Assembly (NCBI RefSeq): GCF_900184225.1
Contig: NZ_FXWZ01000003.1
Coordinates: 1,305,684-1,369,683 of the forward strand
Length of the DNA stretch: 64,000 bases
Source: Brevibacterium ihuae
GTDB lineage: Bacteria; Actinomycetota; Actinomycetes; Actinomycetales; Brevibacteriaceae
Direction: 5' to 3'
How positions within the stretch are numbered: position 1 is the stretch's first letter; the number at the start of each line of letters is the position of its first letter. The notes below the pieces were generated by a model. That model saw nothing but the letters and a program-made list of their open reading frames with translations, was not told the origin of the DNA and ran no database searches. The position numbers and the translations under genes are program-made. Below are positions 20,348 through 59,585 of this stretch, one piece after another.

Positions 20348-20917
20348 TCAGTACATCGCGTGCTGGCCGCCGCCGATCGGGACGACGGTGCCGTTGATGA
20401 AGCCGGCGTCCTCGCTGAGGAGGAAGCTCACGAGGCCGGCGACCTCCTCGGGCTTGCCGAAGCGCTTCATCGGGTTGACCGACACGAACTGCTCGCCGGC
20501 GGCCTCCCAGTTGTCGGGATCCATCTGCTTGAGCGAGTTCTCGACCATCGCGGTCATGATCGCGCCGGGGGCGATCGCGTTGATCCGGATGCCGAAGAAG
20601 CCGTCGATCGAGCCGAAGGTCTTCACCGTGGCCTGGACGTAGTTCTCGACGTCCTCCGGGCGGGTGACGTCGGCGGTGATGAGCTCGACGCGGGCCTCCG
20701 GGGCAGCGGTGGTGACGAGCTTCTTCGTCGCCTCGAGCCCCTCGGCGTTCATGTCGACGAGGACGAGGTTCGCGCCCTCGGCCGCGAGCCGCTCGGCGGT
20801 CGCCTGGCCCAGGCCCGAGCCGGCGCCGGTGATGATCACGGTCGAATCGGTGAAACGCGCAGTCTTGGAATATCCTTCGGGTCGGGATCCGGAGCGCTGC
20901 GGCCCCGGGCCCGCCAT
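20348..20917 (-). pseudogene. SDR oxidoreductase with internal deletion and lost start codon
   Basis: The N-terminal part (VIITGAGSGLGQATAERLA, cofactor site) and C-terminal part (RINAIAPGAIMTAMV to the GGGQ end) are well kept, but FGSIDGFF runs straight into GIRINAIAPG. About 80 residues normally between them are missing, including NNAG, the catalytic Ser and the Tyr-x3-Lys. The joint is near 20594-20599, where GFF and FGI would share a TTC codon. A good ribosome-binding site (GAAGGA) is followed six bases later by AAG at 20866-20864, where ATG would be expected (frame then reads TARFTDST). The remaining in-frame start at 20917 adds 17 non-conserved residues. It cannot be a working SDR as it stands. 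Confidence 0.8.
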
Positions 20918-20993
20918 GGCCACGGGACGCGCTCTCCGGCTGTCACCTCGGACAACGGTTCCGAACGGCGGACTATTCCACCCCGGCCGTCGG

Positions 20994-20999
20994 TAGACT
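20994..20999 (+). promoter_or_regulatory. putative -10 element, leaderless leader-peptide/TauE transcript
   Basis: TAGACT fits the TAnnnT pattern. Six bases separate it from ATG 21005, the spacing expected when transcription begins at the start codon itself. It would drive the short frame at 21005 and the coupled exporter gene. Confidence 0.4.
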
Positions 21000-21004
21000 G
21001 CGGA

Positions 21005-21085
21005 ATGATGCGACTCCCTCTGCGACCAACCCCGCCCCCGTCCTCGGCGCTCTGCCTGCCCCGGCGTCCGGGGTGCCTGAGATGA
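21005..21085 (+). CDS. possible 26-residue leader peptide upstream of TauE
   Basis: A short frame begins at tandem ATGs (21005 and 21008) just after a TAGACT box and ends at TGA 21083-21085, overlapping the exporter start by four bases (ATGA). The peptide is Arg/Pro-rich with two cysteines (SSALCLPRRPGCLR at its end). Short cysteine-containing leader peptides, often with an S-A-L-C stretch, are known before sulfur-metabolism genes in actinobacteria, where ribosome progress senses cysteine supply. Here this role is inference from position, size and the exporter type. The frame could be chance. Confidence 0.4.
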   Translation: MMRLPLRPTPPPSSALCLPRRPGCLR

Positions 21086-21828
21086 CGACGGCGGTCGTCC
21101 TCATCGCCCTCACTGCGATCCTCATCGGCACAGTGCTCCAGCGGCTGTCCGGCACCGGAGTCGGTCTCGTCGTCGCGCCTGTGCTCGCCCTGCTCCTCGG
21201 GCCGGCGCTCGGGGTGTTCCTCACGAACGCGGCGACGGCCGTGTCGAGCTTCCTCATCATGATCGCGGTGTTCCGCGAGGTCGACTGGAAGCGCTACCTG
21301 ATCTTCGTTCCCACGGCGGTCCTCGGTGCGATCCCGGCGGCGCTCCTCGTCCGCGAGCTCGATGGGGCATGGCTCGACATCGTCATCGGCGCGGTCGTCC
21401 TCATGGCGCTCGTCCTGACCTTCGGGATGCCGCGGGTGCCGCACGTGCGCACCCACGCGCTCACCGGGGCGACGGGATTCGTGGGAGGCTTTCTCAATGC
21501 GAGCGCCGGTGTCGCCGCGCCCGCGACGGTGATCTACTCCCAGTTCGCACGCTGGGACCAGCGGTCCTTCGCCGCGACGATGCAGCCGACGTTCGGGACC
21601 ATGGCGGTGATCTCCATCGTGCTCAAGGTCGCCGTCGGTGCGACGACCTTCGACCAGCTCCCGCCCTGGCAGCTGTTCGCCGCGATCGTCGTCACCGTGG
21701 TGCTCGGCATCCGGATCGGCGGGTGGCTCTCGCAGCGGATCCCCGTCGTCGTCGCCCGGCGACTCGCGATCGTGCTCGCCGGGGCGGGCGGTGCCGTTGC
21801 CCTGGTGCGCGGCGTCATCATGCTCTGA
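21082..21828 (+). CDS. TauE/SafE-family sulfite/organosulfonate exporter
   Basis: A 248-residue membrane protein with about eight hydrophobic segments in two halves. GTVLQRLSGTGVGLVVAP near the N terminus and GFVGGFLNASAGVAAPATV in the second half are the paired TauE/SafE (formerly DUF81) motifs. Members move sulfite, sulfoacetate or related anions across the inner membrane. ATG 21082 is taken as start because it overlaps the stop of the upstream short frame; GTG 21073 is an alternative. The cysteine-containing leader frame fits a sulfur role, but no other sulfur gene is nearby. Confidence 0.83.
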   Translation: MTTAVVLIALTAILIGTVLQRLSGTGVGLVVAPVLALLLGPALGVFLTNAATAVSSFLIMIAVFREVDWKRYLIFVPTAVLGAIPAALLVRELDGAWLDIVIGAVVLMALVLTFGMPRVPHVRTHALTGATGFVGGFLNASAGVAAPATVIYSQFARWDQRSFAATMQPTFGTMAVISIVLKVAVGATTFDQLPPWQLFAAIVVTVVLGIRIGGWLSQRIPVVVARRLAIVLAGAGGAVALVRGVIML

Positions 21829-22072
21829 GGCCGGAAGCGGCGACATCGTGCTCCGCGGCCGGAAGGGAGGATCGCGGCTGCGATCCGGCACCCCGTAACC
21901 CGCGTGACCGCGCGGTCTCCGGTCACCGGAAGATGTCGAGCAGGTCTGACCAGAAGCGCACCCGGAAGTAGAATTCTCTCGGCGAGAGCTGCTGATTCTC
22001 GTCCCTGTCCGGTGAGAACAGCCATGCGCTGCGGCCCTCCTCCCGCGGTCCGCCGTCGATCGCCCATCGGGC

Positions 22073-23995
22073 TCATCCCTCGAGCGCCGAGCGCAGCCGC
22101 TCGAGCACCTCGGGATCCTCGATCGTCGACGGGACGACGACGTCGGCCCTGCGGTCGGCGATCTCGCGCATGGTCTTGCGGAGGATCTTGCCCGAGCGGG
22201 TCTTCGGCAGCGCGGGCACGATGTCGACCTGCTTGAGGGCGGCCACCGGGCCGACCTCGCTCCGGACGAGCGCGACGAGGTCGGCGACGACCGCCTCGGG
22301 ATCGGTCTCCGTGCCGTCGGCGAGCACGACGAAGGCGCGCGGGATCTGTCCCTTCGTCTCGTCGTGGACGCCGATCACCGCGCACTCGGCGACGGCGGGG
22401 TGGGCGGCGATCGCGGCCTCCATGGTGCCCGTCGACAGGCGGTGCCCGGCGACGTTGATGACGTCGTCGGTGCGTCCCATGACGTACACGTAGCCGTCCT
22501 CGTCGAGGTAGCCGCCGTCGCCGGTGAGGTAGTACCCCTCGAACGCCGAGAGGTAGGAGGACACGAAGCGCTCGTCGTCGCCCCAGATCGTGGCCATCGT
22601 GCCCGGCGGCAGCGGCAGCCGGATGACGACGAGGCCGTCCTGGCCGGCCGGCTCCGGGCTGCCCGCGGCATCGACGATCTCGACCTGGTACCCGGGGACG
22701 GGCTTCGTGGGCGAGCCGGCCTTGAGCGGGAACCGGTGGAGGCCGATCGGATTCGTCGCGATGGGCCAGCCGGTCTCCGTCTGCCACCAGTTGTCGATGA
22801 CGGGGATGTCGCGCCCGGTCGCCTCCGCGAGCTTCTCCGTCGTCCATGCATAGGTGTCCGGGTCGAGGCGCTCGCCGGCGAGGAACCACGCCCGGAGGCT
22901 CGACATGTCGTGCTGCTTCATCAGCGCGCCGTCCGGGTCCTCCTTGCGGATGACGCGCATCGCGGTGGGTGCGGCGAAGAAGACGTTCGCCCGGTGCTCG
23001 GACACGATGCGGAAGAACGTCGAGGCATCCGGGGTGCCGATCGGCTTGCCCTCGAAGAGCACCGTGGTCACACCGCCGATGAGCGGGGCGTAGACGATGT
23101 AGCTGTGGCCCACCACCCAGCCGACGTCCGAGGCGGTGAACATCGTGTCGCCGGGATGGAGGTCGAAGAGGTTCGGCAGCGACCATGCGAGCGCCGTCGC
23201 GTAGCCGCCGGCGTCGCGCACGATCCCCTTGGGCCGGCCGGTGGTGCCCGAGGTGTAGAGGACGTAGAGCTCGTCGGTCGCTTTCACCGGGGTGCAGGGC
23301 GCGCCCTCCGGGGTCGCGTCCATGAGCTCCTGGTAGTCGAGATCGCGCGCGTCGACGAGCGCACAGCGGTGCTGCGGGCGCTGGACGATGACGGTGAACT
23401 CCGGGGTCTCGGCGGCGAGCTCGAGGGCGCGGTCGAGCAGCGGCTTGTACTCGATGACGCGATTGCGCTCGATCCCGCACGAGGTGGAGACGACGGCCTT
23501 CGGAGCGGTGTCGTCGATCCGGACGGCGAGCTCGTGGGCGGAGAAGCCGCCGAACACCACCGAGTGGACGGCGCCGAGGCGCGCGCAGGCGAGCATCGCG
23601 ATGACTGCCTCGGGGACCATCGGCATGTAGATGATCACCCGGTCCCCCTTGCCCACGCCGCGGTCGGCGAGGACCCGGGCGAAGCGTGCGGTGAGCTCGG
23701 TGAGCTCGGCGTAGGAGTAGCGGCGCACGGTGTCGGTGACGGGGGAGTCGTAGACGAGTGCGGTGTCCTCCCCGCGGCCGGCGATGACGTGGCGGTCGAG
23801 GGCGTTGTAGCAGACGTTGAGCTCGCCGTCGGGGAACCAGCGATAGATCGGGGCGTGGCTGTCGTCGAGCGCTCGAGTGGGCTTCGTCGTCCAGTCGATG
23901 AGCTCGGCGGCCTCGAGCCAGAAGCCCTGCGGATCCTCTGCGGCGCGGGAGGCCGCCCGGGCATAGGGATCGGAATGGGTCTCGGTTCGGGTCAT
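22073..23995 (-). CDS. prpE: propionyl-CoA synthetase-like acyl-CoA synthetase (PrpE/Acs type)
   Basis: A 640-residue ANL enzyme of the acetyl/propionyl-CoA synthetase branch, forming acyl-CoA from a short acid, ATP and CoA. The acetyl-CoA synthetase N-terminal domain is present (GFWLEAAELIDWTTKPTRAL), followed by LYTSGTTGRPKGIVRD, DNWWQTETGWPI, YYLTGDGGYLDEDGYVYV and RSGKILRKTMR with the Lys regulated by acetylation in Acs/PrpE. GIVRD with following GGYATAL is typical of PrpE. ATG 23995 has a strong GAAGGAGG. No prpBCD methylcitrate genes are nearby, so propionate is the likely but not proven substrate. Confidence 0.87.
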   Translation of the reverse strand: MTRTETHSDPYARAASRAAEDPQGFWLEAAELIDWTTKPTRALDDSHAPIYRWFPDGELNVCYNALDRHVIAGRGEDTALVYDSPVTDTVRRYSYAELTELTARFARVLADRGVGKGDRVIIYMPMVPEAVIAMLACARLGAVHSVVFGGFSAHELAVRIDDTAPKAVVSTSCGIERNRVIEYKPLLDRALELAAETPEFTVIVQRPQHRCALVDARDLDYQELMDATPEGAPCTPVKATDELYVLYTSGTTGRPKGIVRDAGGYATALAWSLPNLFDLHPGDTMFTASDVGWVVGHSYIVYAPLIGGVTTVLFEGKPIGTPDASTFFRIVSEHRANVFFAAPTAMRVIRKEDPDGALMKQHDMSSLRAWFLAGERLDPDTYAWTTEKLAEATGRDIPVIDNWWQTETGWPIATNPIGLHRFPLKAGSPTKPVPGYQVEIVDAAGSPEPAGQDGLVVIRLPLPPGTMATIWGDDERFVSSYLSAFEGYYLTGDGGYLDEDGYVYVMGRTDDVINVAGHRLSTGTMEAAIAAHPAVAECAVIGVHDETKGQIPRAFVVLADGTETDPEAVVADLVALVRSEVGPVAALKQVDIVPALPKTRSGKILRKTMREIADRRADVVVPSTIEDPEVLERLRSALEG

Positions 23996-24977: not shown

Positions 24978-25020
24978 GCAAAATCCTGCGGTTCCGTTCT
25001 CAGGAACCGCAGGATTTTGC
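24978..25020. terminator. GCAA-type palindrome, copy 2
   Basis: Perfect 18-base arms GCAAAATCCTGCGGTTCC (24978-24995) and complement (25003-25020) around loop GTTCTCA. It lies 20 bases past the stop of the minus-strand acyl-CoA dehydrogenase gene. Copy 46161-46203 has the same loop and arms except one compensated base pair. Confidence 0.82.
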
Positions 25021-25040
25021 ATTGTGTCGGGTGGGAGGTG

Positions 25041-26189
25041 TCAGATCTTGTTGCGGCTGACGAGCTGCTTGGCGATGACGCCGAGCTGGATCTCGTTCGT
25101 GCCCTCGCCGACGATCATGAGCGGGGCGTCGCGGTAGTAGCGCTCCACCTCGTACTCGGTCGAGTAGCCGTAGCCGCCGTGGACCCGGATCGCGTCGAGG
25201 GCCACCTCGGCGGCCATCTCCGAGGCGTAGTACTTCGCCATGCCGGCCTCCATGTCGACCCGGTCGCCCGAATCGTAGGTGCGGGCGGCATGGAGCACGA
25301 GCTGGCGGGCCGCCTCGAGCTTGGTGGCCATCCGGGCGAGGTGGTTGCCCACCGACTGGTGCTTCCAGATCGGCTTGCCCATCGATTCGCGCTCCTGCGC
25401 GTACTTCACCGCGTCGTTGAGCGCGGCCTGGGCCACGCCGAGCGAGCGGGAGGCGACCTGGATGCGGCCGATCTCCAGACCCTTCATCATCTGCTTGAAC
25501 CCCACGCCCTCGGTGCCGCCGAGCAGCTGGGACTGCGGCAGGCGCAGCCCGTCGAAGGAGATCTCGCAGCTCTCCACGCCCTTGTAGCCGAGCTTGGGGA
25601 GGTCTTGAGAGATGCTGAAGCCCTCGCCCTTCTCGACGAGGATGATCGAGATGCCCCGGTGGCGCGGCTCGGCCTCCGGGTCGGTCTTGCACAGCAGCGC
25701 GAGCAGGTCGGACTTCCGGGCGTTCGTGATCCACGTCTTCGTGCCGTTGATGACGTAGTCGTCGCCGTCCTTCTTCGCCACGGTCCGCATCGCCTGGAGG
25801 TCCGAGCCGCCGCCGGGCTCGGTGAGCGCCATGGTCGCGCGGATCTCACCGGTGGCCATCTTGGGCAGGTACTTCTCCTTCTGCTCCTCGGTGCCGAACT
25901 CGAGGATGAGCTTGGAGACGACGGTGTGCCCTCCCATCGCGCCGGCGAGCGACATCCAGCCGCGGGCGAGCTCCTGGGTGATGTGGACGTAGGCCTCGGT
26001 CGAGACCTTGCCGAAGCCCCAGGGCTCCGGGATGGCCAGACCGAAGATGCCCATCTCCTTCATCTGCTCGATCCACTGGGTCGGGTACTCGTTGGCGTGC
26101 TCGACCTCGTTGACGGTGGGACGGACGTCGCGGTCGATGAAGTCCGCGACGGTGGTGATCATCATCTTCTCTTCGCTGCTGATGGTCAT
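25041..26189 (-). CDS. acyl-CoA dehydrogenase
   Basis: A 382-residue FAD enzyme introducing the alpha-beta double bond in an acyl-CoA and passing electrons to EtfAB, encoded at 46-48 kb. ALTEPGGGSDLQAMRT and TWITNARKSDLL are the FAD/substrate blocks; VHGGYGYSTEYEVERYYRD and the IVGEGTNEIQ end with the catalytic Glu are intact. The size is typical for short/medium-chain enzymes; residues for chain length cannot be read reliably. GTGAGGAG six bases before ATG 26189 is the ribosome-binding site. It lies 71 bases after the fumarase gene in the same direction and could be co-transcribed with it. Confidence 0.9.
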   Translation of the reverse strand: MTISSEEKMMITTVADFIDRDVRPTVNEVEHANEYPTQWIEQMKEMGIFGLAIPEPWGFGKVSTEAYVHITQELARGWMSLAGAMGGHTVVSKLILEFGTEEQKEKYLPKMATGEIRATMALTEPGGGSDLQAMRTVAKKDGDDYVINGTKTWITNARKSDLLALLCKTDPEAEPRHRGISIILVEKGEGFSISQDLPKLGYKGVESCEISFDGLRLPQSQLLGGTEGVGFKQMMKGLEIGRIQVASRSLGVAQAALNDAVKYAQERESMGKPIWKHQSVGNHLARMATKLEAARQLVLHAARTYDSGDRVDMEAGMAKYYASEMAAEVALDAIRVHGGYGYSTEYEVERYYRDAPLMIVGEGTNEIQLGVIAKQLVSRNKI

Positions 26190-57569: not shown

Positions 57570-59585
57570 ATGGACGAGGCCGCGCATCCCCACGACATCG
57601 CAGCGCCACCCGGCGAGCCCGCACCCCTGACAGCCGTCGGCGATCCCGAGGTGCCCGGCGAGGCATCGGTGTCCGACGGGAACACGGTGCCCGGCGATGC
57701 GTCGGTGACTGACGGGGACGCGGCATCCGCCCCGGCTCCCGGCTCCCCGGGGGCCCTCCGGATCCTCTCCGAGGTCTTCGGCTACGAGGACTTCCGCGGT
57801 GACCAGGGTGCGATCATCGACCACGTCGCCGGGGGCGGGGACGCGGTCGTCCTCATGCCCACCGGCGGCGGCAAGTCGCTGTGCTACCAGATCCCCGCGC
57901 TCCTGCGGCCGGGCACCGGGATCGTCGTGTCCCCGCTCATCGCCCTCATGGCCGATCAGGTCGCCGCGCTCGAGGCGCTCGGCATCCGGGCGGCGTTCCT
58001 CAACTCCTCGCTCGACCTCGACGAGGCCCGCACCGTCGAGGCCGCGTTCGCCGCCGGCGAGCTCGACCTCCTCTACATGGCCCCGGAGCGCCTCGTCCTC
58101 GAGCGCACCCGCGCCCTGCTCCACCGCGCCCCCGTGGCGCTCTTCGCGATCGACGAGGCGCACTGCGTGTCCCAATGGGGCCACGACTTCCGGCGCGACT
58201 ACCTGGGGCTGTCCCTCCTCGCCGAGGAGTTCCCGGAGATCCCGCGGATCGCGCTCACCGCGACGGCCACCCGCGCCACCCACGAGGAGCTCACCGAGCG
58301 GCTGCGGATGGAGAGGGCGCGGCACTTCGTGTCGAGCTTCGACCGGCCGAACATCCAGTACCGGATCGTGCCCAAGGACCAGCCGCGCAAGCAGCTCATC
58401 GACTTCATCTCCCGCGAGCACGATGGTGAGGCCGGGATCGTCTACTGCCTGTCGCGCAAGAGCGTCGACGCGCTCGCGCAGGCGCTCGACGCCCGCGGGA
58501 TCCCGGCGCTGCCCTACCACGCGGGCATGGATGCGGCCGATCGCGCCCGGAACCAGGCCCGGTTCCTCCGCGAGGACGGCATCGTCATGGTCGCGACGAT
58601 CGCGTTCGGGATGGGCATCGACAAGCCCGACGTCCGGTTCGTCGCCCACCTCGACCTGCCGAAGTCGATCGAGGGCTACTACCAGGAGACCGGGCGCGCC
58701 GGGCGCGACGGGCTCGCCGCGACCGCGTGGATGGCCTACGGGCTCGGCGACGTCGTCAACCAGCGCCGGCTCATCGACTCCGGGGAGGGCTCCCCGGAGT
58801 TCCGGCGGAACCAGCGTGCCCACCTCGACGCGATGCTCGCGCTGTGCGAAACCGTCGACTGCCGGCGCGTCCAGCTCCTCCGGTACTTCGGACAGGAATC
58901 GACCCCCTGCGGCAACTGCGACACCTGCCTGGCACCCCCGCGCACATGGGATGCGACGATCGCGGCGCAGAAGCTCCTCTCCGCGCTCATCCGGCTCGAC
59001 CGCGAGCGCGGCCAGCAGTTCGGCTCCGGACAGGTCATCGACGTGCTGCTCGGCCGCGACAATCTGCGCTCGGAGCAGTCCCGGCACGACGAGCTCAGCG
59101 TGTGGGGAGTGGGCACGGAGCTGAGCGAGAAGCAGTGGCGCACGGTCATCCGGCAGCTCATGGCCGCCGACATCATCGCCGCGGCCGGCGAGTACAACGT
59201 CCTCGTGCCCGGCCCGCGGGCCACCGGGGTGCTCCGCGGCGAGGAGACCGTGCACCTGCGCGATGATCCGGAGCCCGCCCGGGTCTCCCGCCGGTCCCGA
59301 GGTGCGAGCGGCTCGTCGGGTGCGCGCGCCTCGGCGGCGGACGGGCTCGCGGGCGCGGACCGGGAGCTGTTCGAGGCGCTGCGCGAATGGCGGACGGAGA
59401 CCGCGCGGGAGAAGCAGATCCCGCCCTACATGGTGTTCTCCGACGCGACCCTCGTGGGCATCGTCGAGGCGCGTCCGGCCTCGATCGGTGCGCTCGGCAC
59501 GGTGAGCGGCGTCGGGCTCAAGAAGCGCGCCGAGTACGGCGAGGCGATCCTCGCGGTCGTCGCAGGGGCCGCTGCGGGGGAGTGA
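57570..59585 (+). CDS. recQ: ATP-dependent DNA helicase RecQ
   Basis: A 671-residue 3'-5' helicase. The helicase core has GGGKS at 99-103 (Walker A), DEAH at 185-188 followed by the aromatic loop CVSQWGHDFR, TATAT, and YYQETGRAGRDG (motif VI). The RQC part holds four zinc cysteines (the C in ETVDCRR and the CGNCDTC cluster) and a winged helix; an HRDC domain (YMVFSDATLVGIVEARP) ends the protein. It unwinds forks and recombination intermediates. The first 60 residues are an acidic, repetitive extension (GDPEVPGEASVSDG-like units) not found in E. coli RecQ. Monocistronic. Confidence 0.95.
   Translation: MDEAAHPHDIAAPPGEPAPLTAVGDPEVPGEASVSDGNTVPGDASVTDGDAASAPAPGSPGALRILSEVFGYEDFRGDQGAIIDHVAGGGDAVVLMPTGGGKSLCYQIPALLRPGTGIVVSPLIALMADQVAALEALGIRAAFLNSSLDLDEARTVEAAFAAGELDLLYMAPERLVLERTRALLHRAPVALFAIDEAHCVSQWGHDFRRDYLGLSLLAEEFPEIPRIALTATATRATHEELTERLRMERARHFVSSFDRPNIQYRIVPKDQPRKQLIDFISREHDGEAGIVYCLSRKSVDALAQALDARGIPALPYHAGMDAADRARNQARFLREDGIVMVATIAFGMGIDKPDVRFVAHLDLPKSIEGYYQETGRAGRDGLAATAWMAYGLGDVVNQRRLIDSGEGSPEFRRNQRAHLDAMLALCETVDCRRVQLLRYFGQESTPCGNCDTCLAPPRTWDATIAAQKLLSALIRLDRERGQQFGSGQVIDVLLGRDNLRSEQSRHDELSVWGVGTELSEKQWRTVIRQLMAADIIAAAGEYNVLVPGPRATGVLRGEETVHLRDDPEPARVSRRSRGASGSSGARASAADGLAGADRELFEALREWRTETAREKQIPPYMVFSDATLVGIVEARPASIGALGTVSGVGLKKRAEYGEAILAVVAGAAAGE

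Follow-up and report, generated by a model that had tools for sequence, protein, structure and literature searches.

Why does a short reading frame with two cysteine codons overlap the start of a TauE/SafE-family transporter gene in Brevibacterium ihuae, and does its peptide sense cysteine on behalf of the exporter or does its translation simply bring ribosomes to it? We addressed this question in a 64-kb stretch of DNA (hereafter the window), in its own genome and in orthologous loci, which are designated by L numbers where they have to be told apart.

Layout of the short frame and the transporter gene

The features of the locus are collected in Table 1. The sequence-only reading had proposed a TAGACT box, a 26-codon frame and an ATGA overlap with the exporter, all of which were recovered, together with a six-base spacer that on counting comprises five bases (GCGGA, from the box to the first ATG). 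Two tandem in-frame ATGs, at 21005 and 21008, open the frame 5 and 8 nt from the box, its stop is the TGA at 21083-21085, and its peptide reads MMRLPLRPTPPPSSALCLPRRPGCLR. No convincing -35 element was found for the TAGACT box, and a sigma-70 scan of 20800-22100 did not return the box. The same hexamer is present in the ortholog of Brevibacterium sp. CS2, and the remaining orthologs with a coupled or leaderless start have TANNNT boxes. For the genome-wide spacing we used an own-genome sample of 464 kb (the window plus 400 kb), with 297 genes called by a simple custom rule. The distance from box to candidate start was 6 nt in 33 of the 297 genes and 7 nt in 18, was 5 nt in none and 8 nt in two, and at every other spacing between 1 and 39 nt was found in at most 7 genes. 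The two window ATGs bracket this mode of 6-7 nt, so that the message would at best be leaderless within 1-3 nt.

Table 1. Features of the locus, in positions of the window
Feature	Position	Strand	Basis
-10-like box TAGACT	20994-20999	+	sequence reading
Short upstream frame of 26 codons and a stop; second possible start at ATG 21008	21005-21085	+	sequence reading, ortholog comparison
Possible hairpin CCCCGG-CGT-CCGGGG, directly 5' of the exporter start	21059-21073	+	40-nt local fold
ATGA stop/start overlap joining the short frame and the exporter	21082-21085	+	sequence reading
TauE/SafE-family (PF01925) membrane transporter, 248 aa	21082-21828	+	PF01925, E 7.4e-24

The assignment of the downstream gene to the TauE/SafE family, made in the same reading, was confirmed by a profile search (PF01925 TauE, 85.2 bits, cut-off 32.6). 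No NCBIfam model matched the exporter at E <= 0.001, and a sequence search of solved structures yielded no relative, its single hit being at chance level (E 0.36). The genome-contig search returned a single named relative, Brevibacterium sp. CS2, with 82% identity in the exporter; a longer exporter start is listed at GTG 21073, and the CS2 ortholog start aligns to ATG 21082.

Start modes of the orthologous exporters

Orthologs were present in 18 of 60 family genomes at E <= 1e-50, own genome included; L020 was added from another family of the order and L019 is truncated at the start by its contig, leaving 18 readable loci, window included. Their starts were picked from alignments and, in the leaderless group, also from the box, which favours that group in the following counts: five coupled starts, nine direct boxes, two couplings to a dehydrogenase gene, one Shine-Dalgarno start (L008) and one unclear case (L020). 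A box, a short frame and an RTGA overlap thus occur together in 5 of 18 loci, namely the window, L003 (TAGACT, 21 aa frame, GTGA overlap), L004 (TACACT, 14 aa frame with tandem ATG, GTGA overlap), L005 (TACGCT, 43 aa frame, ATGA overlap) and L018 from another genus (TAGAGT, 18 aa frame, GTGA overlap). All five frames begin with RTG (26 aa in the window), and their peptides are unalike. Measured from start to start, the distances of 77, 62, 41, 128 and 53 nt are all 2 mod 3, as coupling requires; the ATG of L003 lies 8 nt from its box, off the 6-7 nt mode. In the nine direct cases (L006, L007, L009-L015) the box stands 6-7 nt 5' of the exporter's own start, and L016 and L017 have a TGATG overlap between a lactate-dehydrogenase-like FMN gene and the exporter.

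The layout is thus kept while the peptide diverges in 5 of the 18 readable orthologs, and this recurrence of box, RTG and RTGA supports the proposal of a leaderless start with coupling to the exporter. Regarding conservation of the short frame ahead of orthologous exporters, on which the sequence-only reading had staked its case, the outcome was divided: the lack of peptide conservation speaks against that reading, and the conserved architecture does not.

Chance level and distribution of the coupled layout

In the own genome, 4 of 297 genes had a short frame with NTGA overlap and a box 4-8 nt ahead of it; when the box was sought at four decoy distances instead, the counts among these 297 genes were 2, 4, 4 and 3. 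Coupled leaderless frames are therefore in no excess over decoys among these genes; the instance in a single genome is not above chance, and the first observation could have been a chance one. When the 200 upstream bases were shuffled, coupling arose in 25 (window), 21 (L003), 148 (L004), 12 (L005) and 60 (L018) of 5000 shuffles. Across the 18 readable orthologs, a box at 4-8 nt accompanied five couplings and nine direct starts, and box distances from 12 nt on gave one coupling (L003, 24-28 nt) and two boxes ahead of an exporter start; these two, in L004 and L018, are the boxes of the loci's own upstream frames (uORFs) viewed from the exporter. Related loci enter these counts and are not independent of one another. 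In a 19-row tree of the exporter, the coupled state required 3 changes, against a mean of 4.6 after shuffling and an equally low number in 32 of 500 shuffles; the leaderless state required 2, against a mean of 6.6 and an equally low number in 1 of 500.

Cysteine codons in the short frame

The five coupled frames (window, L003, L004, L005, L018) carry 2, 0, 0, 1 and 0 cysteines. Shuffles of the window frame gave 1.14 cysteines on average and at least two in 32% (P = 0.32), and enrichment of cysteine was accordingly rejected. No contiguous Cys codons were found in the window peptide, whose end reads ...LCLPRRPGCLR with no CC. The cysteine-leader models NF042934, NF042936 and NF042933 did not match it at E <= 10, and a leader-model scan of the coupled peptides from the window, L003 and L005 was likewise negative. 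In the positive control, the L149 peptide, which lies about 0.6 kb upstream of a sulfite-reductase match, was recognised by NF042934 at 35.6 bits (cut-off 27). Within the 64-kb window, no boxed frame of 8-60 aa other than the short frame has at least two cysteines. Searches for PAPS reductase and sulfite reductase found no match in the own genome. With nonadjacent, chance-level cysteines and no leader-model match, the idea that the exporter is under cysteine sensing was not upheld.

Cysteine-containing frames and sulfur genes elsewhere in the genus

Boxed frames of 8-60 aa with adjacent cysteines were absent from 30 PAPS-reductase loci of the genus and from 10 rhodanese loci of the own genome (flanks of up to 1.5 kb). 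Counting adjacent cysteines or at least three, four boxed frames were present in ten 16-kb sulfate-assimilation regions and one (L108) in the 400-kb own-genome sample, and 30 sulfite-reductase loci from a search of the class held one boxed CC frame (L149) and one unboxed CCC frame (L126). An unboxed CCC frame also recurred about 7.4-8.5 kb into 7 of the 10 sulfate-assimilation regions (L093, L095-L098, L100, L101); in the three cases that were placed (L093, L095, L096) it overlaps the second PAPS_reduct match, and it is therefore probably an out-of-frame reading of that gene.

NF042934 exceeded its cut-off in 8 of 57 genus genomes, and four of these eight loci were read (L153, L154, L155 and L158), the following gene being classified for L155. 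Peptides of the cysteine-leader family (RRLHIDL or RRIHIDL, then ...C) were seen at about 1453-1557 in L153, L154, L155, L158 and L161 and at up to 1551 in L162. That of L155 precedes an SBP_bac_5 solute-binding protein, and that of the own genome (L162), a sub-cut-off NF042934 match of 22.2 bits, stands ahead of an NlpA-family protein; no leaderless box was found at the examined starts of these peptides.

PAPS and sulfite reductases were present in 36 of 57 genus genomes and absent from all 17 exporter-bearing Brevibacterium genomes. A fumarase search matched 26 of the 57 genomes, of which five exporter-bearing ones shared 82-100% identity and the remaining 21 had 72-74%, which suggests that the exporter-bearing genomes form one clade, with 5 of the 17 entering this comparison. 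We therefore drew no function from the reductase absence, and a functional link between it and the exporter was dropped, the absence being probably clade-linked.

Gene neighbourhood and putative substrate

The neighbours identified were a lactate-dehydrogenase-like FMN enzyme, a hydrolase, an SDR, an AMP-binding acyl-CoA synthetase and a TM2 protein, with no sulfur gene among these direct neighbours; a distant window gene (682-2196) matched glutamate--cysteine ligase weakly, at 31.5 bits against a cut-off of 332. Across 18 ortholog regions of up to 9 kb each (L033-L050), the hydrolase was present in 12 regions, the TM2 protein in eight and the FMN dehydrogenase in three (L033, L046, L047); two of the eight queries, the acyl-CoA synthetase stretch (out of frame) and 25000-25734 (probably no real gene), were left out of these counts. 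Going by the family name, sulfite or sulfonate would be the putative exported substrate. A 2-hydroxy- or oxo-acid seems to us as worthwhile a candidate as a sulfur compound, because two orthologs are coupled to the lactate-dehydrogenase-like FMN gene, and the TGATG overlap itself hints at a 2-hydroxy-acid link.

Two side observations concern the window sequence. The SDR gene (20348-20923, minus strand) lacks about 86 internal codons that its CS2 ortholog has; the gap measures 258 nt in L033 between two tblastn pieces, and Pfam coverage runs from adh_short positions 2-80 to adh_short_C2 positions 165-236. ARAGORN called a tRNA-Cys of 91 nt at 57692-57782 (plus strand), within a RecQ-family helicase gene (57570-59585); the call is probably false.

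Codon bias, RNA structure and anti-Shine-Dalgarno pairing

The short frames show a weak coding-type bias (pooled GC3-GC2 of 0.10 over 112 codons) compared with the exporters (GC3 0.92-0.97, GC2 0.47-0.52); taken singly, the L003 and L005 frames have higher GC3 (0.95 and 0.93). The possible hairpin of the window was present in the 40-nt local fold and absent from the whole-leader fold, and L003 likewise gave a local CCCCG-TCG-CGGGG. None of the five coupled leaders was more stable than its shuffles (z from -1.5 to +0.2; window and L003 whole leaders, -0.7 and -0.3). A small GC-rich hairpin could perhaps make the exporter start depend on an arriving ribosome, but it is confined to the local folds.

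A weak GGGG-like site lies 9-12 nt upstream of the window exporter, with an anti-Shine-Dalgarno pairing energy of -6.3 kcal/mol. Across the coupled loci the exporter pairing ranged from -2.8 to -6.3 kcal/mol, compared with -10.4 in L008. Pairing in the window, L003 and L005 (-5.7 to -6.3) was stronger than in six loci of other or unclear start mode (-3.0 to -4.1), L008 excepted, and some exporter initiation of its own is therefore possible in these three.

Discussion

We consider it likely, at a probability of roughly 0.7, that the short frame is a leaderless uORF that delivers ribosomes to the coupled transporter independently of its peptide, a reading that draws on sequence comparison. Transcription would start no more than about 3 nt from the tandem ATGs, as the box suggests, and 70S ribosomes would load on the 5'-terminal AUG, translate 25-26 codons, terminate at the UGA within the observed AUGA and restart from it on the transporter. 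The uORF would thereby occupy the place where 9 of 18 readable orthologs have a direct leaderless start, and the comparison suggests that selection keeps the box, the start and the coupling frame, not the peptide. The architecture recurs with differing, mostly Cys-free peptides, which argues that the frame is probably not a cysteine sensor; the two Cys codons are, in this explanation, incidental. It is about an even bet that a direct leaderless start, a coupled leaderless uORF and coupling to an upstream enzyme gene are interchangeable in one gene family, mainly within one genus. If so, these loci would form a natural series in which a leaderless uORF replaces a Shine-Dalgarno or leaderless start and its peptide is free to drift.

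The most serious competitor, though an unlikely one, is that the frame arose by chance in an unremarkable 5' region and that the exporter is started independently by the weak GGGG-like site or from another promoter. The own-genome rate at decoy level, the spacer off the 6-7 nt mode and the pairing energy of the GGGG site are all consistent with it, but four further orthologs share the layout with differing lengths and the coupling frame kept, and almost nothing appears at decoy distances in the orthologs. A cysteine-responsive attenuator, in which a shortage of charged Cys-tRNA would slow ribosomes at the two Cys codons and thereby alter exporter expression, is very improbable. The codons do fall in the second half of a coupled frame that is probably leaderless, the frame is singular among boxed frames in the window as described above, and actinobacterial precedents exist (PMC9094748, PMC9031893, PMC13236596, PMC1262725, all in excerpt); the uneven and nonadjacent cysteines across the five frames, their frequency in shuffles, the negative model searches beside a positive control, and the lack of PAPS or sulfite reductase matches in the genome and of sulfur genes among the identified direct neighbours, the ligase match being weak, distant and sub-cut-off, all weigh against it. 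Least probable of all is a stalling leader of another kind, for example one acting at the PPP run in codons 10-12 of the window peptide and tuning coupling with translation stress, given that the other four coupled peptides have no PPP run.

A cysteine attenuator and a frame that does no more than load ribosomes look alike, and comparing orthologs is a way to tell them apart. The loci also make up a small set of natural variants for studying the interchange of leaderless and coupled initiation outside mycobacteria, and for the transporter one reason to assume cysteine control falls away.

None of the titles listed in our literature searches concerned this locus, and its closest counterparts are of several kinds. 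Cysteine leaders are described in PMC1262725 (in excerpt), and the polycysteine leaderless uORF attenuators of actinobacteria reported by Canestrari 2020 are known to us through excerpts of PMC9094748, PMC9031893 and PMC13236596. Like these, the present locus has a short frame, probably leaderless, with Cys codons ahead of a gene; unlike them, its Cys codons are not contiguous, conserved or enriched, its peptide matches no leader family, and no link to cysteine biosynthesis was found. NF042934, a cis_reg_atten model named 'putative leader peptide', likewise concerns a short peptide upstream of an actinobacterial transport gene, but its matches in the genus lie elsewhere. A list of leaderless leader peptides also exists for Streptomyces lividans (PMC8079986, in excerpt).

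The nearest resemblance is to mycobacteria, in which Shell et al. 2015 (PMC4633059, in excerpt) described small leaderless ORFs coupled by RTGA to the next gene, gave an example in which the leaderless start and the coupling are conserved but the peptide is not, and proposed peptide-independent ribosome delivery. Shared with these ORFs are a length of less than 50 codons, the RTGA overlap and a kept architecture with a diverging peptide, and a 5'-terminal RTG, suggested here by the box, may be a further common trait; the present case differs in its host (Brevibacterium and a close genus), in its transporter gene, in being known from sequence alone and in having orthologs of one gene split between a coupled frame and a direct leaderless start. 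A 2025 review (PMC12548453, in excerpt) repeats the ribosome-delivery idea as a general statement about uORFs, and the present locus adds to that class one sequence-level case of a short frame proposed to deliver ribosomes to a coupled gene. The class of ribosome-delivery uORFs is thus already described in mycobacteria, and the window locus is, on the preferred reading, a further case.
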